A DNA stretch of 64,000 nucleotides from Cystobacter fuscus (lineage in GTDB: Bacteria; Myxococcota; Myxococcia; Myxococcales; Myxococcaceae). Under the pieces are notes generated by a model. That model ran no database searches, was not told the origin of the DNA, and worked only from the letters and a program-made list of their open reading frames with translations. The DNA is taken from the NCBI RefSeq assembly GCF_002305875.1, contig NZ_CP022098.1:5766001-5830000 (forward strand), in the 5' to 3' direction. Shown piece by piece: positions 2,375 through 14,266 of this stretch. The first letter of the stretch is position 1. The number at the start of each line of letters is the position of its first letter. Made by a program: the position numbers and the translations under genes.

Positions 2375-3720
2375 GTCGGCGCAAGCCGCTCGCGCACGAT
2401 GTCCACATCTTCCTGCTGGCGCTGCTGGCGGGGCTGCCGGGCTCCGTCACCGCGCTCGTGCTCCTTTGGGGAGGGGACGCGAGCGCGAAGGTGTGCTGGT
2501 CCTTCACCGTGCTGGTGTTGGGCGTGTACCTGGGCGCGGCCTTCGCCGTGCGCGAGCGCGCCACCCGGCCGCTGCAGACGGTGGCCAACCTGCTCGCGGC
2601 CCTGCGCGAGGGGGACTATTCGGTGCGTGGGCGCGGTGCGCGGGGGGGAGATTCCCTGGGCGAGGTGCACCTGGAGACCAACGCCCTGGCCGAGACGCTG
2701 CGCGAGCAGCGGCTGGGGGCGATGGAGGCGGACGTGCTCCTCTCCCAGGTGATGCAGGAGATCGACGTCGCGGTGCTGACCTTCGACGCGGAGGGGACGC
2801 TGAAGCTCGTCAACCGTGCCGGAGAGCGGCTGCTCGGATTGCCTCGCGCGTGGCTGATGAACCAGAAGGCGGAGGAGCTCGGGCTGGCGGAGTTGCTGGA
2901 GGGCGTCGTGCCGCGGCGGCTCACGCGCACCTTCGCGGTGGAGGGCGGTCCGTACGAGTTGCGGCGGGGGACGTTCCGGCAGGGCGGGTTGCCCCACCAA
3001 CTGGTGGTGATCGCGGACCTGCGGCTGGCGCTGCGCGAGGAGGAGCGCGAGGCGTGGCGACGGATGGTGCGGGTGCTGAGCCATGAGATCAACAACTCGC
3101 TGGCGCCCATCCACTCCATCTCGGACTCGCTGAAGGCCACGCTGGCGCAGAGCCCTCGCCCGGCGGATTGGGAGGAGGACGCGCGGATGGGTCTGGGCAT
3201 CATCGCGCGTCGCAGCGAGGCGCTGGGGCGCTTCATGTCCGCCTATGCCCGGCTGGCGCGCCTGCCCCCTCCGAAGCTCTCGCCGCTGGAGGTGGACCCG
3301 TGGGTACGGCGTGTGGTGGCGCTGGAGACGCGGCTGCCGGTGGAGGTTCGCCCGGGGCCCTCGCTCACGGTGAGCGCGGACGGAGATCAGTTGGAGCAGC
3401 TGCTCATCAACCTGGTGCGCAACGCGGTGGACGCGGCGCGCGAGCGCCAGGGCAGGGTGTGGGTGTCGTGGACGGCTCCCTCGGCGGACGCGGTGGAGGT
3501 CTGGGTGGAGGACGAGGGCCCGGGCCTGGCGGACACGGCCAACCTCTTCGTGCCCTTCTTCACGACGAAGCCGGAGGGCAGTGGCATCGGCCTGGCGCTC
3601 AGCCGGCAGATCGCCGAGGCACATGGGGGCAGCCTGCGCCTGGAGAACCGGATGGAGGGCCCGGGGTGCCGTGCGCGGCTGCGGCTGCCGTTGAACGCGG
3701 CCGCGCTCCGCTTCCTCTAG
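2371..3720 (+). CDS. Membrane sensor histidine kinase, NtrY-like
   Basis: A 449-aa kinase and the likely partner of the preceding regulator. Two hydrophobic segments near the N-terminus (about residues 8-30 and 37-55) anchor it; they are followed by a HAMP-like stretch, a PAS-like domain (about 125-215), a HisKA domain with H238 in VLSHEINNS, and an HATPase domain with N-box NLVRNAVDAA, G1 box DEGPGL and G2 box GSGIGLAL. The loop between the membrane segments is very short, so sensing is probably intramembrane or cytosolic. GTG start, 4-nt overlap with the upstream stop. Its TAG stop (3718-3720) lies in a CTAG palindrome that also supplies the stop of the convergent HExxH gene, so the operon ends flush against the RiPP cluster with no visible terminator between. 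Confidence 0.92.
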   Translation: MSRRKPLAHDVHIFLLALLAGLPGSVTALVLLWGGDASAKVCWSFTVLVLGVYLGAAFAVRERATRPLQTVANLLAALREGDYSVRGRGARGGDSLGEVHLETNALAETLREQRLGAMEADVLLSQVMQEIDVAVLTFDAEGTLKLVNRAGERLLGLPRAWLMNQKAEELGLAELLEGVVPRRLTRTFAVEGGPYELRRGTFRQGGLPHQLVVIADLRLALREEEREAWRRMVRVLSHEINNSLAPIHSISDSLKATLAQSPRPADWEEDARMGLGIIARRSEALGRFMSAYARLARLPPPKLSPLEVDPWVRRVVALETRLPVEVRPGPSLTVSADGDQLEQLLINLVRNAVDAARERQGRVWVSWTAPSADAVEVWVEDEGPGLADTANLFVPFFTTKPEGSGIGLALSRQIAEAHGGSLRLENRMEGPGCRARLRLPLNAAALRFL

Positions 3721-4892
3721 GCCGAAGGCAGGACATCCGCGGCGACGAGCTTCGCTCGAAGCGGCAGGTAGATGTCCTTGCCCGCTCCTTCGAGATGTTC
3801 GTCGTGGAGCACCTGGAGTTCTCGATCCATGCCGACGACGAACGCCCTGTTCTCGGCTTGATGGCGAGCCATCTCGGCTGGCTCGAAGACACCCTTGACG
3901 GAGTCCAACGCCTGCAGCGCGAGCAGGATGTTCCCGAACGCGTGGAAGCCGAGCAGGATCTTGTCGAGCGGCCTCTCGGTCTTCATCAGGACCGAATAGG
4001 CTTTCGGTGCATTCACCTTCTCCACGCGGGTATTCCACTGGAGCAGGTGGAAATACTGGTGCGAGCACTCGTGGATGAGCATGACGATGGTCGTGAGCGG
4101 GCTGGTCACGGGGACATGGACGTGACCCGGCCAGGACGAGAAGGACTGGCTGTGCGTGCCCCTCGTGCACTCCTCCAGTGGGGCGACTTCGCGCAGCAGA
4201 CCCGCGATCCAGACGAAGTACTCTGGCAGGCGCTCTTCCAACAGCGCCATCGTGGCCTCGAAGCGGCCCTTGCTTCCGGGCTCGGCGGAGCGGATCCCTC
4301 GCCTGGCCTCCGGGTGCCAATACCTCAACCACTCGTCATTGGTGAGCACGGCGGAGCCCGAGCTTCCCACGCGCAGCGCGGCTTGCTCGTTCTCCACCCA
4401 CACCGCTGAGATTCCCCCCGTGTCGAGCTTGTTGAGGCGAAGCACGGTGTCCCCGGCCCCATTTCGGATCGTCAGCACGGTGTGGTCGCCCGTGACGATG
4501 AAGCGATCTCCGTGCACGAAATGGCCGGCGACAGCCAGGGGATGGGAGGCGACGATGTCCACCTCGAGGGACGGCACCAGCCCGTTCAAGAAGGCGGCGA
4601 GCTGGAACTGCCCGGAGATCCACGACCAGTTGTCCTTCGTCACGTTCCGCGTCAGGCCCAGGGCCGCGGCGCCCATTTCGGGCATCCATCCGCGGACCGA
4701 CAGGCGCTGCGGCGTGATCGCGTCACGCGGGATGGGAATCCTGGGGACGCCCAGCTCGTCGGCGAAGCCATTGGCCTTGTCGAGCAGTGCCCGGAAGGTC
4801 CTGCAGCTGAGATTCTCCGCGAGGGGCAGGAAGTTCCCCTGATAGGGATTCGAGAACTTGGAGAAGAGCATCGTGGGCTCCTTGGCTGCCAT
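3717..4892 (-). CDS. HExxH protein C, probable peptide beta-hydroxylase
   Basis: 391 aa. The signature is LIHECSHQ, with H274, E275 and H278 as likely metal ligands, followed about 45 residues later by the conserved GFHAFGN, whose His could be a further ligand. The N-terminal block (FSNPYQG, LPLAENLSCR) is shared with the paralogs at 4908-6068 and 8837-9994. Proteins of this type in radical-SAM RiPP clusters are known as alpha-ketoglutarate-HExxH peptide beta-hydroxylases rather than proteases; that role is assigned here from motif and context. AGGAGG stands 9 nt before the ATG at 4892. It is the last gene of the cluster, 16 nt after the stop of paralog B, and its stop shares a CTAG palindrome with the convergent kinase gene. 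Substrate residue unknown. Confidence 0.85.
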   Translation of the reverse strand: MAAKEPTMLFSKFSNPYQGNFLPLAENLSCRTFRALLDKANGFADELGVPRIPIPRDAITPQRLSVRGWMPEMGAAALGLTRNVTKDNWSWISGQFQLAAFLNGLVPSLEVDIVASHPLAVAGHFVHGDRFIVTGDHTVLTIRNGAGDTVLRLNKLDTGGISAVWVENEQAALRVGSSGSAVLTNDEWLRYWHPEARRGIRSAEPGSKGRFEATMALLEERLPEYFVWIAGLLREVAPLEECTRGTHSQSFSSWPGHVHVPVTSPLTTIVMLIHECSHQYFHLLQWNTRVEKVNAPKAYSVLMKTERPLDKILLGFHAFGNILLALQALDSVKGVFEPAEMARHQAENRAFVVGMDRELQVLHDEHLEGAGKDIYLPLRAKLVAADVLPSA

Positions 4893-4907: not shown

Positions 4908-6068
4908 CTACACGGACGGCAGGAAACCCGCCGCGACGAGCCTCTTGCGAAGGGGCAGGTAGATGTCCTTGCCCACCTCCTTCAGATATGTCTCGAAGAG
5001 CGGTTGCAGCTCCTGGTCCAGCCCGACGGTGAGCGCCAGGTGCTTTCGCAGTTGCTTCTCCATGTCGCTCTCGTCGAAGCGGTACTTCGAGGATTGGAGC
5101 GTACGAAGCGCGAGGAGCACGTTGCCGAAGGCATGGAAGCCAAGAAGGATCTTCTCGAGCGGTCTCTTCGTATTCTTGAGGACGGAATAGGTTTCCGGCG
5201 CATCCGCCCGCACCATCTGGCTGTGCCAGAGGAGCAGGTTGAAGTACTGGTGGGAGCACTCGTGGACGAGGACGATCACGTTGCTGATGGGGGACGAGAA
5301 CGAGACCGAGGCCTGCACATGGCCAGGGTAGAGCGCGAACGAGCCGCTGTCCGTGCCCGCATCGCGTCCGCGAAGCAGCGCCAGCTCCTTCAGCAACATC
5401 GTCACCCAGACGAAGTACTCGGGGATGGACTCTTCCAGGAGGGACAGCGCGCTCTCGTAATGCTCCTTGTCCCGCAGCGGCGCCTCCGACAAGGGCCGCC
5501 GCTCATCCTGCGGGTACCAGTGCGCCATCCATTCGTCCCCGCCCAGCACCGCGACCGCCGCGCTCCCCAATCGAACCACGTCCTGGCGATCCTTGATCCA
5601 CACCGGTGCCATGCCAGGCAGCTCGAGCTTCCGCAGCTCGAGCACCGTCGTTCCACCGCCGTTCTTGACCGTGAGCCCCTGCTTGTCTCCCCGGAAGAGC
5701 AGCTTGTCCTCCCGGACGAAATGGCCGGCGACCGAGAACGGGGTCGGGCCCGTCACCTCGAGCTGGAGCTCTGGCAGCAATTCGTTCAAGAAGGCGGCCA
5801 GCATCAGCTGCCCGGAGAGCCATGACCAGTTCTCCCGGGTCACCCCGCGAGCGAGCCCCATGGCGACGACGCCGAGCTCGGGCGTCCACGAGCGGGCCGA
5901 CAGCCGCTTGGGGGAGATGGCCTCGTCGCTGATGGGCAGCTTCGGGTAGCCGAGCTGCTCCGCCTGGGCATTCGTCTTCGCGAGCACGCTGCGCAGGCTC
6001 CGGCAAACGAGGTTCTCCGCGAGGCGCACAAAGTCACCCTCATAAGGGGTCGAGAACGCGGACAGCAT
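4908..6068 (-). CDS. HExxH protein B, probable peptide beta-hydroxylase
   Basis: 386 aa, second of three paralogs. It carries LVHECSHQ (H269, E270, H273) and, downstream, GFHAFGNVLLAL, plus the shared N-terminal block FSTPYEG and LAENLVCR. The start was set at the ATG at 6068, preceded by GAGGAG; an ATG 18 nt upstream lacks such a site. The alpha-ketoglutarate-HExxH hydroxylase reading comes from family resemblance and from the neighbouring radical SAM enzyme and precursor. No signal peptide is present, so it acts in the cytoplasm before export. It lies between the exporter gene (42 nt upstream) and paralog C (16 nt downstream). A zinc peptidase is the alternative reading of HExxH, less likely because three copies sit in a RiPP operon that already has a C39 protease. 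Confidence 0.84.
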   Translation of the reverse strand: MLSAFSTPYEGDFVRLAENLVCRSLRSVLAKTNAQAEQLGYPKLPISDEAISPKRLSARSWTPELGVVAMGLARGVTRENWSWLSGQLMLAAFLNELLPELQLEVTGPTPFSVAGHFVREDKLLFRGDKQGLTVKNGGGTTVLELRKLELPGMAPVWIKDRQDVVRLGSAAVAVLGGDEWMAHWYPQDERRPLSEAPLRDKEHYESALSLLEESIPEYFVWVTMLLKELALLRGRDAGTDSGSFALYPGHVQASVSFSSPISNVIVLVHECSHQYFNLLLWHSQMVRADAPETYSVLKNTKRPLEKILLGFHAFGNVLLALRTLQSSKYRFDESDMEKQLRKHLALTVGLDQELQPLFETYLKEVGKDIYLPLRKRLVAAGFLPSV

Positions 6069-6110
6069 GTCGTCTCCTCTTCTCAATGGGTGGCCATGAC
6101 GGGGTTGTCG

Positions 6111-8258
6111 TCAGGCGGTCACAACATCAAGCGCGCGGGGCGCCATCTCGGTCAACTGGCCATTGCGCAAGAGCAGCACCCGGTCGGCGCGCTCGATGGT
6201 CGCCGAACGATGGGCGATGATGATCTTGGTGGCGTCCAGGTTCTGGAGATGATCGAGGATCTGCCGTTCGCTCTGGGCGTCGATGTTGGCGGTCCCTTCG
6301 TCGAGCATCAGGATCCGGGGCTTGCGGTACAACGCGCGGGCGAGGAGGACCTTCTGCTTCTGGCCTTCGGACAGGGGGGAGCTCAGCTGGCCCACCCGCG
6401 TGTTGTAGGCCATGGGCATGCGTTCGATGTCCTGGCGAACGCACGCCAGCTCCGCACACGCGGCAACCCTCTCGATGTCGATTTCCGGGTCGAGCAGCGC
6501 GATGTTCTCCGCGAGCGTGCCGTTGAAGAGCTGGTCGTCCTGCGTCACCACTCCGATCTGGGAGCGGAGCATCGCGAGTGACATCTCCTGGAGGTTCTTC
6601 GAGTCGTACTGGATCCGCCCGTCCGTGGGCCGGTAGAGACCCAGCAGCAACTTGAGCAAGGTCGTCTTGCCCGCGCCGTTCTCCCCGATGATGGCGACGA
6701 ACTCACCCGGGGCGATCCGCAGGTTCACCTTGTCGAGGATCACCGCGTCCATGGGACTGTACCGGAACGACAAGGACTCGACGGCGAGCTCGCCGCTCAG
6801 CGCCCACTCGACCGGGCGGCGAACGGGCGTGGCGGTCGAGGAGGCCAGGGCGGGGGTGAGCACCTCGGGCGACTCCGGCTCCGCGAGGATGAGATCCTCC
6901 AGCCGCTCGAGGCGGACGCCGAGGATCCGGAACTCGAAGAAGCGCTCGACCAGCAGCGTCGCCCGGGTGAGGAAGTGCGAGTTGTAGAAGATCGCGGCCA
7001 GCAATGTTCCTATCGTCATGAGCCCGCCGGCCACCTGGTTGCCCGCGAGCAGGACGAAGAGCGCCACGTTCAAGCCAACGAGCATGAACTTGAGGCTCCG
7101 ATAGGCGATCTCGAATTTGCCAGACCGCTTCTGCTCGTGGATCAACCGGCCGTAATTGTGGAGCCAGGACTGGTAGCGCCTTCCCTCGATTCCGTTCACC
7201 TTCGTGGTGAAGATCGTGGACAGGGTCTCGATCAGGATGCCGTTCTCTTCGCCCTTGGCGAACACCAGGGCCTGCTCACGGCTCCGAGCACCCTGATAAC
7301 CGAAGCTCTTGAGCACGAAGTACGCGGCGGCGGTGAGCAGCGACACCGCTCCGAGCGCCGACGAGAACCGGAACACCATGGTGATGGACAAGAGGGTCAT
7401 CAGGCCGTCGATCAGCCCCAACGGCAAGGTGCCGAGCATGAATCGCTCGATCTCGTCCGTTACCCTGTATCGCTCGATCAGGTGGCCGATGGGCCGCTTC
7501 TCGAAGAAGGCCAACGGCAGCCGGATCGCCTGTCGGAACACCCGCTGCATCATCTCCTGGTTCAACGTGGTGCCGGCGCGGAGGGCCGCGTAATCGCGGA
7601 TGAAGTTGGTCGCGCCGTGAAGGAGCGCGGCGAGCATCAGCAGGCCGGCGGCGCGAAGGATGAACCCCTCATCCTTGTTGGCGATGCCGTTGTCGACGAT
7701 CGTCCGCATGATGATCGGCTGCGTCAGGAGCAGCAGCTCGAGCAGCGCGGACAGGAGCAAGATCTGGATGAGGTTCGTCTTCCATTGCCCGAGCGAGCCG
7801 AGCACATCGAAGAGCGTGAGCTTCTTGCCCCGGGCCACCTTGGAGAAGTCATCGGCCGGCTCGAGCTCGAGCACGATTCCGGTGAAGTGGTTGGAAATCT
7901 CGTCGCGCCGGAGGACCTTGGTGCCTTTGGCCGGATCGTGGATGGTGAACGTGTTGCGTCGCACCTGCTTCAAGACGACCAGGTGCTCGAGATCCCAATG
8001 CAGCATCGCGGGCGTTTTCACCGCCGGGAGCTGATCGAGGTCACAGCGCATCACCCGCGACTTGAAGCCGAGCTGCCTGGCCGCATCGATGATGCCACGC
8101 ATGGACAGCCCCTTGAGCGACACGGGGAAGAGCTTGCGCAGGTCGTCGATGCTGGTCTCCTGGCCGTGATACCACGCGATCATGGTCAGGCAGGCCAGGC
8201 CGCATTCGGAGCCCTCTGCCTGGAAGACCATCGGGAGCTGTCGACGCCTGTTCCACAT
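6111..8258 (-). CDS. Peptidase-containing ABC transporter (C39 family)
   Basis: 715 aa from the chosen ATG. This single polypeptide cuts the leader from the modified peptide and exports the core. N-terminal C39 protease: catalytic Cys19 in EGSECGLACLTM with the oxyanion Gln13, the His in LEHLVVL, and the Asp in IHDPAKGT. A six-helix transmembrane domain follows (about 150-440), then the ATPase with Walker A GENGAGKTT, signature LSEGQKQKV (Glu replaces the usual second Gly), Walker B ILMLDEGTANID and H-loop IIAHR. The ATG at 8258 lies directly before the protease domain; GTG at 8306, overlapping the stop of the HlyD-like gene as GTGA, is an alternative start and would add 16 residues. C39 exporters cut after double-Gly-type sites, consistent with the AAG motif of the precursor. 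Confidence 0.93.
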   Translation of the reverse strand: MWNRRRQLPMVFQAEGSECGLACLTMIAWYHGQETSIDDLRKLFPVSLKGLSMRGIIDAARQLGFKSRVMRCDLDQLPAVKTPAMLHWDLEHLVVLKQVRRNTFTIHDPAKGTKVLRRDEISNHFTGIVLELEPADDFSKVARGKKLTLFDVLGSLGQWKTNLIQILLLSALLELLLLTQPIIMRTIVDNGIANKDEGFILRAAGLLMLAALLHGATNFIRDYAALRAGTTLNQEMMQRVFRQAIRLPLAFFEKRPIGHLIERYRVTDEIERFMLGTLPLGLIDGLMTLLSITMVFRFSSALGAVSLLTAAAYFVLKSFGYQGARSREQALVFAKGEENGILIETLSTIFTTKVNGIEGRRYQSWLHNYGRLIHEQKRSGKFEIAYRSLKFMLVGLNVALFVLLAGNQVAGGLMTIGTLLAAIFYNSHFLTRATLLVERFFEFRILGVRLERLEDLILAEPESPEVLTPALASSTATPVRRPVEWALSGELAVESLSFRYSPMDAVILDKVNLRIAPGEFVAIIGENGAGKTTLLKLLLGLYRPTDGRIQYDSKNLQEMSLAMLRSQIGVVTQDDQLFNGTLAENIALLDPEIDIERVAACAELACVRQDIERMPMAYNTRVGQLSSPLSEGQKQKVLLARALYRKPRILMLDEGTANIDAQSERQILDHLQNLDATKIIIAHRSATIERADRVLLLRNGQLTEMAPRALDVVTA

Positions 8259-8302
8259 GGATTCACTTCTCCGTCCAGCGCCGCGGTCCGCGGCGCCGGA
8301 AA

Positions 8303-8797
8303 TCACTGATGCCACTCGAGGACGGCCCGCGGTGGCAGGACGAGCGCCGCCTCCGCTGTCCGTGGCAGATGGATTTCGGAATCGGCCGTAACACCCACGA
8401 TCCTACCTTCGACCTGGGTGCAACCAGGCCCCAGGGCGCACGCACCACGTGATTTTCCGCTCACCCGCAGGGGATACGAGCGCTGGCCCCCCTCGAGCTC
8501 GAGGCGAACCTCGTCCCCGGGCCCGATGCCCTCCAGCAACTCCTGACGAGCCGCGACCGAGACCACCACGGTTCCGGCGCCCTGCTGCTGGCTCAGCCGC
8601 GCCGACACCCGCGGCTGATAGGTCGAGGTGAGAAATGCGTAATACAGGAGGAGCAGCGCGGCCGTGGGAACCAGCAGCCAGACGCTCGAGAGCGGCTTGC
8701 CGTTGACGGGAATCCCATAGAAGCGGGTCTTCTGGTACTTGAACACCTCCGCTCGGAAGAGCGCCCGCTCCTCTCCGATGCGCGACGATTTGACCAT
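8303..8797 (-). CDS. Short HlyD-like membrane protein of the RiPP exporter
   Basis: 164 aa. An N-terminal cytosolic stretch (MVKSSRIGEERALFRAEVFK) is followed by one membrane helix around residues 38-58 (LLVPTAALLLLYYAFL) and a small beta-rich part resembling the lipoyl/barrel portion of HlyD-type adaptors. Position and topology fit the periplasmic adaptor partner of the C39 exporter next to it. It is far shorter than the usual 350-450 aa: the long coiled-coil hairpin that reaches an outer-membrane channel is absent, and the only cysteines lie close together (CALGPGC). It may be a genuine minimal adaptor or a shrunken remnant, but the reading frame is clean and the TGA overlaps a possible start of the exporter, so it looks functional. 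The ribosome site is weak. Confidence 0.72.
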   Translation of the reverse strand: MVKSSRIGEERALFRAEVFKYQKTRFYGIPVNGKPLSSVWLLVPTAALLLLYYAFLTSTYQPRVSARLSQQQGAGTVVVSVAARQELLEGIGPGDEVRLELEGGQRSYPLRVSGKSRGACALGPGCTQVEGRIVGVTADSEIHLPRTAEAALVLPPRAVLEWHQ

Positions 8798-8836: not shown

Positions 8837-9994
8837 CTACGCGGGAGGCAAGAGGTTGGCGTCGACGAGCCTCTTGCGCAGCGGGTAGTAGATTTCCTTT
8901 CCCATCTCCTCGAGGTGTTCGGCACCGTGCTGGCGAAGGGGTTCATCCAGCGCGACGGCCCAGGACTCATGGGTTCGTAGCTGCTTTTCGAGCTCCTCGC
9001 GATCGACGCGCCCCGCGAACGACTGGAGCGGCATGAGCCCCAGAAGGACGTTGCCGACCGCATGGAAGCCCACGAGGACGCGATCCAACGGCCGCTTCGT
9101 CTTCTTCAGGATCGAATAACCCGCTGGGGCGGAAGGCTTCGCCAGGCGCCCGTGCCAGAAGAGCAGGTTCAAGAACTGGTGGGAGCACTCGTGGATGAGC
9201 ATGATCAGCGCGGTCAGCACCGTCGCGGCCGAGCCATGCACGTGGCCTGGATACAATCCGAAGGATTGGTTCTGCGTCCCATGCTCGTGGGCCTCGATGA
9301 GGACGAGCTCCCGCAGCACCGTGGTGACCCAGAGGAAGTACTCCGGGATGCACTCCTCCATGATCGCCATCGCCGACTCGAGCCGCGCCGTGTCGCCCCG
9401 GCTGTCGGCGGAAAGGACACCGCGGTGTCCCTCCGGAAGCCAGTAGCTCATCCACTCGTCGTTGCCGAGCAGCGCAACGGCCGCGTTCCCGAGCCGCACG
9501 GAGTTCCCCTGGCTCTTCAGCCAGGCCGGCGCCATTCCGGGCACCTGCAGCTTCTCCAAGGCCAGCACCGTCTGGCCCGCGCCGTTCTTGACGAGGAGCT
9601 GCTGGCTGTCGCCCCGGAAGAGCAGCCGCTCATCCCGCAGGAAGTGCCCGGCGACCGTGACCGGGTGTGGCCCCGTGAACTCCAGCTCGAGCGACGGAAT
9701 CAACTGGCTCAGGAACGCGGCCAGCATGAGCTGACCCGAGATCCAGGACCAGCTGTCCTTCGTCACCCCGCGACCGATCCCCATGGAGGCGGCGCCGATC
9801 TCCGGCATCCACCCTCCCACCGACAAGCGTCGGGGTGTGATCGCGTCATTGCCGAGGTCCACCCGCGCGGCGCCAAGCTGCTCCGCGTGCGAGTTGGCAT
9901 GTGCCACCAGGCCTCGGAACATCCGGCAGCTGAGGTTCTCCGCCAGGGGGAGGAACGCGCCTTCGTGCGGATTCGAGAACACAGAAAACACCAT
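8837..9994 (-). CDS. HExxH protein A, probable peptide beta-hydroxylase
   Basis: 385 aa, the copy nearest the maturase. It has LIHECSHQ (H268, E269, H272), then GFHAVGNVLLGL, and the N-terminal block FSNPHEG and LPLAENLSCR common to all three paralogs. The ATG at 9994 sits 9 nt after GAGG; a GTG at 10003 is the other option. The gene ends 39 nt before the HlyD-like gene and begins 27 nt after the maturase stop, so it is surely in the same transcript. Expected chemistry is iron- and 2-oxoglutarate-dependent hydroxylation at a beta carbon of the precursor core. The three copies have clearly diverged in the central part while keeping the metal motif, so each may act on a different residue. Confidence 0.85.
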   Translation of the reverse strand: MVFSVFSNPHEGAFLPLAENLSCRMFRGLVAHANSHAEQLGAARVDLGNDAITPRRLSVGGWMPEIGAASMGIGRGVTKDSWSWISGQLMLAAFLSQLIPSLELEFTGPHPVTVAGHFLRDERLLFRGDSQQLLVKNGAGQTVLALEKLQVPGMAPAWLKSQGNSVRLGNAAVALLGNDEWMSYWLPEGHRGVLSADSRGDTARLESAMAIMEECIPEYFLWVTTVLRELVLIEAHEHGTQNQSFGLYPGHVHGSAATVLTALIMLIHECSHQFLNLLFWHGRLAKPSAPAGYSILKKTKRPLDRVLVGFHAVGNVLLGLMPLQSFAGRVDREELEKQLRTHESWAVALDEPLRQHGAEHLEEMGKEIYYPLRKRLVDANLLPPA

Positions 9995-10021
9995 GGGGTC
10001 CACCCTCGCGTTGCTTCCGGG

Positions 10022-11266
10022 CTACTTCATCAAGGCCTGGTACGTGTCCTTGGCGGTGGACGTCGTCGGTTGTGACAGCCGCCCGGCGAGATCCTCGACC
10101 GAGACCCGCGTCTTCTTCACCAGGAATCCCGCCACCTCCTCGTGAATCATCTTGATGGTGTCGCAGAGGACGGACTTCTTCGCGAACCCTTCCGCCTTCG
10201 AGTAGCGGTTGAACAGCTCGCCCGAACGGCACGAGCGGAACCATTCGCACCCCTGGCACTCGGCTGGAACCTGATCGATGGCATCGTTGAGCATCTGCCA
10301 GGTCGGACTCTCGAGCAGGTCGCGCAAGGACTTGCCGAAGATCTTGACGCCGGTGTTCGCGAACCGCTCGTCCAGCCCCAGCATGTTGTCATCGACGAGG
10401 ATATCCCCTTCGCTGGAGATCGTCGCGATGTGGTGGCGGCGCGACTTGCGCTGGTCGTTGAACTCGGCGCCTTGCGTGGACCTGAGCGCCAGGAGGACAT
10501 CGGAGATGCTTCTGACGAAGTGGAACTGCGGGTAGATCAGCTGATCCAGCGTGTAGCGCACGAGCTTGCGGTGGGACTCGACCTCCTGGTTCCACTTCAC
10601 CGCGTCCGGGTTGTCCCACCCGCCTCGCGGGAAGTTGAGGTTCGGGTTGCGGATTCCGAGCTCGCGGACGAAGTGCTCGAGCAGCTTGTCGCTCTCGTTG
10701 GACGGATGGACCACGCAGATGGCGCCCACGTTGTTCAGGCGCCCCTGGCTGGCCGCGGCCTGCAGGGCACGCAGCCCGCGCACGGTCGCCTCGTAGCTGC
10801 CGCGGCCCGCGTGATCAGGCCTCCGGCGGTCGTGGATTTCCCGGGACCCATCGATGCTGACCCCGACCTTGAACTTGTGCTTCTCGAAGAGGGAGATCCA
10901 TTCCTCGTCGATCAGGACACCGTTGGTCTGGATGGCGAAGGCGACCTTGACCTTGCCCTCGAGGGTGTTGCGGATCGTCGTGCAAAGGCTGTCGAAGATG
11001 GACTTCTTCAAGAGCAACGGCTCGCCACCGTGGAAGACGACGTGCAGCTGCCCGAGCTTGAGGTCATTGACGGAGCGCACGAGGAACCCGGGCAGCTCAT
11101 CCATGACTTCCTGGGTGATGAATGCCTTGTTCTTGTATCCGCTGAACTCCTGCATGTAGTAGTAGCAGTAATCGCAGGCGAGATTGCATCGTTCCGCCAC
11201 CTTGAGAACGATGTCGAAGCTGAGGGCTTCGTTTGAAGTCGTGGTGGGGACGGGGGTCGCGGACAT
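10022..11266 (-). CDS. Radical SAM/SPASM peptide maturase
   Basis: 414 aa. The 4Fe-4S motif CNLACDYC (C27, C31, C34) and the GGEP motif define a radical SAM enzyme. A C-terminal SPASM-like region with CQGCEWFRSC and a further Cys in SVLCDTIK would hold auxiliary clusters. Its closest conceptual relatives are the FxsB/XyeB/HaaB-type maturases that join an aromatic ring (Phe, Tyr, Trp or His) to a beta carbon two residues downstream, giving three-residue cyclophanes, and FxsB-type loci often carry HExxH proteins as here. The start (ATG at 11266) follows GAGGAAC; the longer frame to 11323 lacks a ribosome site. Which bond it makes in this precursor is not decided by sequence. Confidence 0.9.
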   Translation of the reverse strand: MSATPVPTTTSNEALSFDIVLKVAERCNLACDYCYYYMQEFSGYKNKAFITQEVMDELPGFLVRSVNDLKLGQLHVVFHGGEPLLLKKSIFDSLCTTIRNTLEGKVKVAFAIQTNGVLIDEEWISLFEKHKFKVGVSIDGSREIHDRRRPDHAGRGSYEATVRGLRALQAAASQGRLNNVGAICVVHPSNESDKLLEHFVRELGIRNPNLNFPRGGWDNPDAVKWNQEVESHRKLVRYTLDQLIYPQFHFVRSISDVLLALRSTQGAEFNDQRKSRRHHIATISSEGDILVDDNMLGLDERFANTGVKIFGKSLRDLLESPTWQMLNDAIDQVPAECQGCEWFRSCRSGELFNRYSKAEGFAKKSVLCDTIKMIHEEVAGFLVKKTRVSVEDLAGRLSQPTTSTAKDTYQALMK

Positions 11267-11525
11267 GGGTCGGGTTCCTCGAGTTCGATTCGAGTTCAGC
11301 GAAGTGGTGGGCCACTGCTCCAAGGGAGCAGCGTGAGGCGGGCCCCCTTCGTCTCGGCTGTCACCCGGTCAAAAGACACCCCAGTTCGGATTCGAGCTGA
11401 GGTGCTGGGATTACAGACTCGAGCTGCAGCCCCGAGGGTGTTGGGAGTCGGTTTCGGCGGACCTCAGTCCTGAATGGTTGATTTCCAAGCGAGGAGAGGA
11501 CGGGGGCATTTGTCGAAACAGTCTC
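11267..11525 (-). other. Precursor-to-maturase spacer
   Basis: A 259-nt gap between the precursor stop and the maturase start, long for this compact cluster. It contains a 7-bp inverted repeat (CTGCTCC / GGAGCAG, about 11312-11331) but no T-run. In RiPP loci such spacers often hold a leaky attenuator that makes precursor mRNA more abundant than enzyme mRNA; that role is inferred. No second core-like small ORF was found in it. Confidence 0.4.
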
Positions 11526-11708
11526 TTAGCTGCTCGAGTGGTTGTTCTGGTGGTAGCTCGAGTGGTTCGCGCCGGCCGCGATGATGTCCAGGTACTCGTC
11601 GAGGCTGTCGCCCAGACGCTCATCGAGGGCCGCGTCGAGCGCGCCCTGATCCTTCTCCTCGCTCTTGACAAGCTTCGCCGAGAGCTTCTGCAGAATGCTG
11701 TCGCTCAT
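11526..11708 (-). CDS. RiPP precursor peptide, 60 aa
   Basis: A strong AGGAGG stands 6 nt before the ATG at 11708. The first about 46 residues form a charged, helical leader (MSDSILQKLSAKLVK...) ending LDEYLDIIAAG. That end resembles a double-glycine leader: Leu at -7 and Ile at -4 if cleavage follows AAG. The remaining ANHSSYHQNNHSSS is wholly polar and contains no Cys, Thr, Asp or Glu. It divides into tetrads NHSS, YHQN and NHSS plus a final Ser, with His at core positions 3, 7 and 11. Divergent transcription from the ADOP permease shares a 170-nt region with TTGACA on the minus strand at 11805-11800, a possible -35 element without a well-placed -10. No homologue is recognised from memory. 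Confidence 0.82.
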   Translation of the reverse strand: MSDSILQKLSAKLVKSEEKDQGALDAALDERLGDSLDEYLDIIAAGANHSSYHQNNHSSS

Positions 11709-11881
11709 TGTTTCCTCCTATGTGGCCCAATGTAAGGTGTTCCCATGGCGCGAACCCCCCACCTTGGGTAAAATAACGCTCGCATCGTGCTTGCCCGTTT
11801 GTCAACAAAGTTTGGTGGTTGTCAGTAAGGTGTCTACTACTGTTGCTCCAGCCCGCCCATGCCCGGGAGGTCGCAGTCCCA

Positions 11882-14266
11882 ATGGAGTCGCTCCTCAGAG
11901 ATGTCCGGTTCGCCTGGCGGGGCCTGCGCCGTACCCCGGGCTTCACCTTCGCCGTGGTGCTCACGCTTGGTCTGGCGTTGGGCATCAACATGGTGATCTT
12001 CAGCCTGGTGCACGCGTTGGTGCTGCGCCCGTTGCCCTTTTCCAGGAGTGGGGAGCTGGTGCGGCTGTATTGCACCCAGCCCACGGAGGGGGGCGTGAGT
12101 CCCTCGGAGCCAGAGGTGGCCGCGTGGGCGGAGGAGACAGGCGCCTTCAGTGGAGTGGTGGGCTTTCATTATACTTCCGTCAACCGCACGGGAGGGGAGC
12201 TGCCCGAGCGGCTCCTGGCGGCGCGCGTCACCCCCAACCTCCTCTCCACGGTGGGCGTGGGGCCCGCGGCGGGCCGCCCGTTCGAGCCCGCGGACGCCAG
12301 GCCCGGCGCGGCGCCCTCGGCGCTCGTCTCCCACTCGCTGGCGACGCGGCTGTTCTCCACCGCGCAGGCGGCGGTCGGCCAGACGCTCTGGCTGGATGGC
12401 AGCGCGGTGCGCGTCATGGGCGTATTGCCCCCGGGCTTCGTGTTGGGTGATTCCGGCCGCGAGGTCGATGTCTGGCTGCCGCTCGAGCTGCGCAAGACCC
12501 CGGAGGCCCAGGGCGATCACCATCTCACGGTGCTCGCCCGGCTGAAGCCCGGCGTGTCATTGGAGGCCGCGCGCGCCGCGGCCGCCCGCCGCAGTGCCCT
12601 GCTGCATGAAGGTGTGGGCACGAGCACCGAGCCGCCACATGGCGTGCAGGCCCAGTCGTGGCAGGAGAACGTCACCGGGCCCGTGCGCTCGGTGGTGTTC
12701 GCCCTTTGGGGCGCGGCCGCCTTCGTCCTGCTCATCGCTTGCGCCAACGTGGGCAACCTCCTGTTGGCGCGCGCCATCCACCGTCGGCGCGAGGGGGCCA
12801 TCCGCGTCGCGCTCGGGGCGAGCCTGGGGCGTCGCGTGTGGGAGGCGCTCGCCGAGAGCGTGCTGTTGTCCATGCTGGGCGGCACGGTGGGGTTGTTCCT
12901 CGCCCTCTGGGGGACCGACCTCGCGTCCGCGCTGCTTCCGTCGACGCTGCGCGGCCTTTCCTCGCCCGGGCTGCACCTGCCGGTGCTGCTCTTCGCGGTG
13001 GGGATGTGTCTGGGGGTTGGAATGGTCCTCGGGTTGGTGCCCGCGATCGACTCCGCCCGCGTCTCGCTCCTGCCGCTGCTGGGTGGGGGGCACGGCAGCA
13101 CGGGTGCTCATCACCCGCTGCGCGCGGGTCTGGTGGTGGTGCAGCTCGTGCTGGCCTTCGTGCTGCTCACGGGGGTGGGTCTGCTCGTGCGCACGCTCGC
13201 GCAGCTCTCCTCGCTGGACCTGGGCTTCCGGCCGGAAGGCGTGGTGACCGCGGCGGTGCAGTTGCCGGACCAGCGCTACCCGGACGAGGCCGCGCGCATC
13301 CGAGCCGCCGTCCAGCTCGAGGCGGCGCTGTCCGCGCTTCCTGGCGTCCAGGCCGTGGGGCTCCTGCGGGAGGTTCCCCTGGGAGGCTCCACCTCGTCGT
13401 CGGGCATCATGATGGAGGGCACGGACGATACGGTGCGTCGGCACGCCGAGCACCGCGTGGCCAGCGCTGGCGCCCTCAAGGCCCTGGGGGTGCCACTGAA
13501 GCGCGGCCGCCTCTTCGCCGAGACAGACGCTCCGGGTGCGCCCCCGGTGGCGCTGGTCAACGAGTCCTTCGTTCGTACCTTCCTCGGAGGCCGGGACGCC
13601 CTGGACACCCGCTTCACCTTCGATGGGAACACGTGGTGGACGGTGGTGGGCGTGGTGGGAGACATCCGCCACCGCGAGCTGACGGAGCCCCCGGCTCCGG
13701 CCTTCTATGTGCCGGTGGCCCAGACGGGGCCCACCCAACTGCACCTCCTCATACGGGGCGCGCCCCTTCCCACGCTCGCGCAGGTCCGCGAGGTGGTGCG
13801 CGGCGTGGACCCCGAGTTGCCGGTGCCCACGCTGGAGCAGCTTGGCGCGTTGGTGGTGCGTGGCCAGCGGCGCTACCAGATGACGCTCGATCTGCTCTCC
13901 GCGCTTTCAGGGCTCGCGCTGTTCCTGGCGGCCCTGGGCATCTGGGGCGTGGTGTCCTACGGCGTCTCCCAGCGCACGCGCGAGCTGTCCATCCGTCGTG
14001 CCCTGGGGGCGAGCGAGGGTCATCTGGTGTGGCTGGTCGTGGGCGCCGCCGCGCGGCTGATTGGGATCGCGCTCCTGGTGGGCCTTCCGGCGGCGGTGGG
14101 GCTCGGGCAGATGATGCGCGGCCTCCTTTACGGTGTCACTCCTGCGGACGTCCCCACTCTATTGGGCGTGGCGGCGCTGCTGGGCACGGTGGGGCTGTTC
14201 TCCGCGTGGTTGCCAGCGCGGCGCGCGGCGAAGGTGGAGCTGGGGCTTGCCCTGCGGGCGGAATAG
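11882..14266 (+). CDS. ADOP/MacB-type ABC permease
   Basis: About 794 aa. It begins MESLLRDVRFAWRGLRRTPG, the hallmark N-terminus of the ADOP (duplicated orphan permease) family. Two FtsX-like halves are visible: four-helix blocks separated by MacB-like periplasmic domains, with hydrophobic segments near residues 20-45, 270-300, 320-350, 365-390, 415-435, 675-700 and 720-790. Such permeases have no own ATPase and need a MacB-class NBD such as that at 195-944. GGGAGG precedes the ATG at 11882; an upstream GTG at 11819 would add 21 non-family residues. It is transcribed away from the RiPP precursor. Whether it serves the RiPP locus or, more likely, the separate two-component/ABC system cannot be told from sequence. 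Confidence 0.88.
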   Translation: MESLLRDVRFAWRGLRRTPGFTFAVVLTLGLALGINMVIFSLVHALVLRPLPFSRSGELVRLYCTQPTEGGVSPSEPEVAAWAEETGAFSGVVGFHYTSVNRTGGELPERLLAARVTPNLLSTVGVGPAAGRPFEPADARPGAAPSALVSHSLATRLFSTAQAAVGQTLWLDGSAVRVMGVLPPGFVLGDSGREVDVWLPLELRKTPEAQGDHHLTVLARLKPGVSLEAARAAAARRSALLHEGVGTSTEPPHGVQAQSWQENVTGPVRSVVFALWGAAAFVLLIACANVGNLLLARAIHRRREGAIRVALGASLGRRVWEALAESVLLSMLGGTVGLFLALWGTDLASALLPSTLRGLSSPGLHLPVLLFAVGMCLGVGMVLGLVPAIDSARVSLLPLLGGGHGSTGAHHPLRAGLVVVQLVLAFVLLTGVGLLVRTLAQLSSLDLGFRPEGVVTAAVQLPDQRYPDEAARIRAAVQLEAALSALPGVQAVGLLREVPLGGSTSSSGIMMEGTDDTVRRHAEHRVASAGALKALGVPLKRGRLFAETDAPGAPPVALVNESFVRTFLGGRDALDTRFTFDGNTWWTVVGVVGDIRHRELTEPPAPAFYVPVAQTGPTQLHLLIRGAPLPTLAQVREVVRGVDPELPVPTLEQLGALVVRGQRRYQMTLDLLSALSGLALFLAALGIWGVVSYGVSQRTRELSIRRALGASEGHLVWLVVGAAARLIGIALLVGLPAAVGLGQMMRGLLYGVTPADVPTLLGVAALLGTVGLFSAWLPARRAAKVELGLALRAE

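Follow-up and report, generated by a model that had tools for sequence, protein, structure and literature searches.

The window (the whole 64,000-nucleotide stretch of DNA analysed here) belongs to a genome of 12.35 Mb assembled as a single contig. Seven consecutive genes lie on its minus strand from position 11708 down to 3717. They encode a precursor peptide, a radical SAM/SPASM enzyme, a first HExxH enzyme, a small protein, a C39-ABC exporter, and a second and third HExxH enzyme. The precursor and radical SAM genes are separated by 259 bases; the gaps between the genes beyond are shorter than 40 bases. The features are:

11526..11708, minus strand: precursor peptide gene P0001 (60 aa), with residues 1-46 as leader and 47-60 as predicted core
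11571..11573, minus strand: Gly46, predicted leader residue -1; dipeptide AG; residue -4 is Ile and residue -7 is Leu
11529..11570, minus strand: predicted core ANHSSYHQNNHSSS, with H-S-S (core 3-5), H-Q-N (7-9) and H-S-S (11-13) as candidate triads
10022..11266, minus strand: radical SAM/SPASM enzyme P0002 (414 aa), predicted to be a cyclophane-forming maturase
8837..10003, minus strand: HExxH enzyme 1 (P0003), 388 aa, HECSH at residue 271; TIGR04267 46.9 bits, cut-off 40
8303..8797, minus strand: small protein P0008 (164 aa); contains a hydrophobic stretch and faintly resembles the N-terminal part of an HlyD adaptor
6111..8315, minus strand: C39 peptidase-containing ABC exporter P0004, 734 aa; Pfam Peptidase_C39, ABC_membrane and ABC_tran above cut-off
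4908..6086, minus strand: HExxH enzyme 2 (P0005), 392 aa; TIGR04267 52.1 bits, cut-off 40
3717..4892, minus strand: HExxH enzyme 3 (P0006), 391 aa; TIGR04267 52.2 bits, cut-off 40
11819..14266, plus strand: ADOP-family permease, a divergent neighbour whose link to the cluster is uncertain; TIGR03434 755.2 bits, cut-off 622.3

P0001 starts with ATG, has a ribosome-site match (AGGAGGAAACA) upstream, and is translated as the predicted leader MSDSILQKLSAKLVKSEEKDQGALDAALDERLGDSLDEYLDIIAAG followed by the predicted core. Positions 11526-11573 comprise the stop codon (11526-11528), the 14 core residues and the preceding Gly. The original prediction placed His at core positions 3, 7 and 11 and found the tetrad NHSS twice in the core. 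The translation bears out both statements, and the two NHSS copies are encoded by an identical 12 bases (AACCACTCGAGC). No promoter or terminator match was found at 11200-11950. The RNA fold of the gap between the precursor and radical SAM genes has a z of -1.95, and 7 of 200 shuffles folded equally well.

Of the window's 367 mechanical ORFs with lengths of 30-130 aa, P0001 alone has the pattern H-x3-H-x3-H in its last 40 residues. Across larger fetched loci the pattern is found in 6/2562 ORFs of that length, a count which holds the locus L035 (see below) twice, because L047 covers that locus too. Two of the six rows are the L035 precursor, one is the L036 precursor, two are an accidental L035 ORF, and the last is an ORF in L106 that lacks a ribosome-site match and seems accidental. 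With core composition fixed, the chance of all P0001 His falling on one step-four ladder is 6/364 (p = 0.0165); the window ladder taken alone is therefore weak evidence.

Two homologous clusters were found. L035 is in a Verrucomicrobia MAG (QHNH01000011.1; genome G195), and its radical SAM enzyme is 57% identical to P0002. L036 is in G019, a genome of the window's family, and its radical SAM enzyme is 41% identical. Their precursors have 62 residues (L035; C-terminal end AAA/HLDIHNSAHQSVPSPN) and 68 residues (L036; C-terminal end SGA/AIHGSAHGSGHLSGHGSIGRQAE); the predicted leader lengths of the three precursors are 46, 46 and 45 residues. Both clusters contain precursor, radical SAM, HExxH, small protein and C39-ABC genes. 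P0001 is taken to be a precursor partly because its homologues adjoin these same kinds of enzyme. The gene order of L036 matches that of the window; the L035 cluster differs in having a divergent ABC gene. After the L035 cluster (L035:11995-14832) there are two genes which we take to be carbamoyltransferase-like and aspartyl beta-hydroxylase-like. An ADOP permease gene adjoins the cluster at all three loci (11819-14266 in the window, L036:4280-6754 and L035:3922-6366); it may belong to the system or may simply be a common gene.

The three best NCBIfam matches of P0002 are all cyclophane maturase models: TIGR04496 XyeB (244.7 bits, cut-off 450), YhhB (203.4, cut-off 445) and FxsB (181.8, cut-off 370). 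No curated cut-off was reached among the 25 models listed. Because the best matches are to these families yet fall under their cut-offs, kinship to cyclophane maturases is clear whereas membership of a named family is not. An HxsB-type maturase of the His-Xaa-Ser system is not indicated, as P0002 scores only 78.8 bits with TIGR03978 (cut-off 370). Among solved structures, the radical SAM profile (A2) matches ChlB (9gm3) at E 1.5e-38.

TIGR04267, which all three HExxH enzymes match above cut-off, is the model for aKG-HExxH-type peptide beta-hydroxylases. The motifs HECSH and RP-x7-FHA are intact in all three proteins. Profile matches to solved structures are weak (SjiH, E 0.0011; ChlH, E 0.24). 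A predicted model of P0003 (mean pLDDT 77) aligns with SjiH at Z 21.8 (344 residues, 4.2 A) and with ChlH at Z 19.4 (286 residues, 4.2 A), and the next row is at 7.3. Foldseek with the same model also ranks SjiH and ChlH first (E 2.6e-9 and 3.3e-5). P0003 is thus predicted from its model to have the ChlH/SjiH fold.

In P0004, the Peptidase_C39 domain (121.6 bits) is fused to an ABC exporter; the protein scores 459.9 bits with TIGR03796, which is under the cut-off of 853.3. C39 leaders have GG, GA or GS before the cut and hydrophobic residues at -4, -7 and -12, according to the available part of PMC10885120. By that rule the AG of the window is a non-canonical pair, while the residues at -4 (Ile) and -7 (Leu) agree with it; the residue at -12 is Ser. 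The predicted leader of L035 ends in AA, with Ile, Leu and Val at the three positions, and that of G019 in GA, with Val, Leu and Leu. The small protein P0008 has no NCBIfam match and a single Pfam match far under cut-off. Related proteins sit after the HExxH gene in L035 (34% identity) and L036 (25%). An hhalign comparison of P0008 with an HlyD-like protein gave a probability of 40, with resemblance to the N-terminal part alone; the kinship to HlyD is weak.

The precursors of the two relatives are 36% and 34% identical to P0001, and the pairwise matches have E-values of 0.002 and 2e-4 (as single comparisons). Conservation of the His spacing in homologous precursors had been named as a check on the original prediction; step four is conserved in 2/2 of those found. 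In the predicted cores, His is at positions 1/5/9 in L035, 3/7/11/15 in G019 and 3/7/11 in the window. Most other core residues are changed between the three precursors. Invariant columns in the three-precursor alignment (A3) include the His at window residues 49/53/57, plus Ser59. Under random His placement, the probability of a step-four ladder is 0.0143 for L035 and 0.0012 for G019 (joint 1.8e-5); these values rest on predicted core ends, and the relatives are non-independent samples.

The residue two positions after each His (i+2) is S, N and S in the window, D, S and S in L035, and S at all four positions in G019; it is S, N or D at 10/10 His. With the His fixed, the probability of this is 0.34 in the window, 0.07 in L035 and 0.0003 in G019, so the preference is carried mainly by G019. 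The conserved unit is therefore best read as H-x-(Ser/Asn/Asp)-x. Gene order, protein families, the conserved His step and the i+2 residues are all read directly from sequence. The original prediction had listed H-S-S (twice), H-Q-N and Y-H-Q as candidate cross-link sites. The i+2 residues at all ten His support H-S-S and H-Q-N as candidate triads. The three-way alignment speaks against Y-H-Q, as the Tyr is replaced by Ile or Ala in the relatives. The same alignment disposes of NHSS as the repeat unit: the Asn before His varies, and the predicted G019 core has no Asn.

A more distant locus with a cyclophane-type radical SAM enzyme is found in G645 (213.5 bits with the profile, 31% identity to P0002). 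A small ORF there (L112:5008-5187), which has a GAGGA ribosome-site match, ends in GGHYSITHISIVFLEE and has two H-x-S triads at step five. No HExxH gene was found in the 14 kb fetched. Step four is therefore not general, and the H-x-S triad may be older than step four.

The copy number of the HExxH gene differs between the clusters. The two single-copy enzymes, those of L035 and G019, have 104 columns in common; 70 of these are kept in P0003, 71 in P0005 and 72 in P0006, so that none of the copies is visibly degenerate. Identity to P0003 is 53% for P0005 and 50% for P0006, versus 38% for the L035 enzyme and 28% for the G019 enzyme. The three window proteins cluster together with moderate support (86/88) in a six-row tree. 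Judged from these sequences, the three copies are probably a lineage-specific expansion of working genes, perhaps with divided labour. G195 has a single match to the L035 HExxH protein at E 1e-5. TIGR04267 is matched once in G019 and five times in the window's genome. Three of these five are the cluster genes; the other two, encoded elsewhere, could in principle act on the window peptide too.

Each part of the system is of a known kind. It resembles the triceptides of the 3-CyFE enzymes (XncB/XyeB, OscB, MscB, HaaB and YhhB), as far as the available descriptions go, in having a radical SAM/SPASM enzyme and aromatic-x-residue triads in the core, here in the form H-x-S/N/D at every His of the three precursors. 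It differs from them in that P0002 is under the XyeB, YhhB and FxsB cut-offs, and in the step-four His ladder, the Ser/Asn at i+2 and the stand-alone HExxH enzymes in the operon. According to the available part of PMC11002830, HaaB joins His C2 to the Ala beta carbon and YhhB joins His C2 to Arg, with links at i+2; MscB makes a Phe C4 to Ser link. ChlB/ChlH (9gm3, 8s5f) is similar in both its radical SAM part (1.5e-38) and its HExxH fold (Z 19.4). However, it is a fused radical SAM and aKG-HExxH protein, whereas the window genes are separate and the HExxH gene is in three copies. ChlH adds hydroxyl groups to His and Asp in a cyclophane peptide (PMC12636437, available part). SjiH (PDB 22ob, 22nu) is the best structural match of the P0003 model but is only 12% identical to it in the structural alignment; the literature search found no paper on SjiH. 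PflC and PosC are stand-alone HEXXH enzymes, each acting on several residues of one precursor (PMC12636437, available part). They differ from the window system in hydroxylating Gln and cleaving the backbone in the company of an MNIO enzyme, and that part of the text describes no cyclophane radical SAM enzyme. A His ladder of fixed step combined with S/N/D partners and three stand-alone HExxH genes did not come up in literature searches over open-licence papers; the primary ChlBH and Tyr/His triceptide papers are outside that scope, so an earlier description is possible.

Taken together, P0001 is probably the precursor from which an exported triceptide-like RiPP is made, by ring closure along the His ladder followed by hydroxylation. 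Ring formation, the atoms joined, the hydroxylation sites, the cut site and the function are what we infer here. The leader would bring the peptide to P0002, which would move along the core and link each ladder His, through its imidazole, to the beta carbon at i+2. By analogy with HaaB, YhhB and MscB, the proposed rings are H3-S5, H7-N9 and H11-S13: three small rings with one residue between them. The HExxH enzymes, as alpha-ketoglutarate/iron oxygenases, would then hydroxylate beta carbons, likeliest those of His or of the ring neighbours. The C39 exporter would cleave past the leader, after Gly46, and export the peptide. Survival of the His columns and Ser59 at 36% and 34% precursor identity speaks for this reading. 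The sub-threshold scores of P0002, the AG leader end and the step of five in G645 speak against it, and clusters with a period-four ladder number only three. The reading predicts His-to-Ser and His-to-Asn links, neither of which was found in the available parts of PMC12636437, PMC11002830 and PMC10885120.

The same observations bear on other explanations. The radical SAM enzyme might act elsewhere or otherwise, for example by a Y-H-Q link or by epimerisation, with the His ladder used only for recognition. P0002 lies under the listed named cut-offs and no characterised close kin were found; there is also a Tyr directly before the central His. However, that Tyr is not conserved, the His columns and the i+2 S/N/D are what lasts in the core, and cyclophane maturases are the best-scoring families, so that this explanation is considered unlikely. 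The ladder might instead be a metal-binding motif in which every fourth residue places a His on the same side of a helix, with only hydroxylation, or nothing, taking place at the His. H-x3-H is a usual metal-binding spacing. Metal binding would have no need of S/N/D two residues after the His in 10/10 cases, the G019 core is Gly-rich and, judged by its composition, would make a poor helix, and a cyclophane-type radical SAM enzyme is present in all three clusters; a metal-binding role of this kind is quite improbable. That P0001 is no precursor at all but a small ORF whose His pattern arose by accident is hardly credible: the window pattern alone would allow it (p = 0.0165), but the ribosome site, the position upstream of the radical SAM gene and the two homologues in equivalent positions do not fit with chance.

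The role of the three hydroxylases must also be considered. The original prediction noted that three Asn/His positions match three hydroxylase-like genes in number. The count is true in the window, where each HExxH enzyme could be dedicated to a single His (or Asn) of the three, and the nearly equal conservation of the copies (70, 71 and 72 of 104) means that each may have its own task. As a rule the match fails, since L035 has one HExxH gene for three His and G019 (L036) has one for four, with no Asn in its predicted core; one hydroxylase per site is ruled out in that general form. Furthermore, single HExxH enzymes modify several residues of one peptide, as PflC and PosC do with several consecutive Gln (PMC12636437, available part). 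Strict one-per-site action in the window is accordingly rated a poor prospect. A bolder form of the triceptide-like reading can be put forward speculatively, as a rather unlikely case. Here, an iterative radical SAM enzyme would make a His-to-Ser/Asn/Asp cyclophane at every fourth residue, and three diverged HExxH enzymes with divided labour would hydroxylate the product. This would yield a rigid, multiply hydroxylated imidazole scaffold, possibly metal-binding, of a kind not yet isolated.

The cluster is a compact natural test of a cyclophane maturase stepping along a regular substrate, and of why three hydroxylase copies stay where the two relatives found have one. It is also rare. The radical SAM profile at E 1e-70 is matched in 2/195 genomes of the window's phylum, and the HExxH profile at 1e-10 in three of the 195, one of which (G144) has a different system. 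In the phylum of L035 the HExxH profile finds one genome of 387, L035's own, and in its order the radical SAM profile finds 2/213. When genome contigs were scanned with P0002, a single relative, L035, came up. The profile searches covered only the phyla of the window and L035, so the number of such clusters is at least three. As the cluster is rare (2/195) and far under the named-family cut-offs, mining by named families could miss it.

Searches with the precursor itself were less selective. Of the 195 genomes, 48 had a match to P0001 at E up to 1; the G019 precursor was among them at E 0.495, upstream of its radical SAM gene, and the matches besides window and G019 were at E 0.0187 and up, mostly in long frames. 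The precursor profile gave 40/195 at E up to 0.1, the strong matches being only the window and G019, both of which were used in building it. A plasmid search found five radical SAM relatives with 30-35% identity. No His ladder was seen beside the two of these five that were inspected (Paracoccus and Pseudoalteromonas); the Pseudoalteromonas precursor-like ORF has Y-x-Q repeats with uneven spacing. The L035 HExxH protein gave one partial match among plasmids, and a search of viral contigs turned up one distant relative. In G144 there are a distant HExxH protein (E 7.8e-22), two radical SAM genes (28-29% identity to P0002) and a precursor-like ORF with the C-terminal end GGYAKWSKA and no His ladder.

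TIGR04267 is more widespread, being present in 30 of the 195 genomes. Fifteen loci were fetched from 14 genomes, and a P0002-related radical SAM enzyme is found at four of the 15, with identity of at most 27%. Only one small ORF at these loci has a His ladder, the seemingly accidental one of L106. Tandem TIGR04267 pairs about 1.5 kb apart are found in several genomes of the window's family (G136, G141, G032 and others). No P0002 relative was found beside the G136 pair (L101); the G141 locus fetched (L102) is a different, single match. Elsewhere in the window's genome (L098:8912-10462, near 5475000 of G000:C1) an HExxH protein follows a precursor-like ORF of about 90 residues with a Gln run and a C-terminus like SAGVQFAPSDSGFAV. 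The same layout is found in L104 and in L097, where the ORF has 106 residues and a variant end. The Gln runs recall the consecutive-Gln hydroxylation by PflC/PosC described in the available part of PMC12636437.
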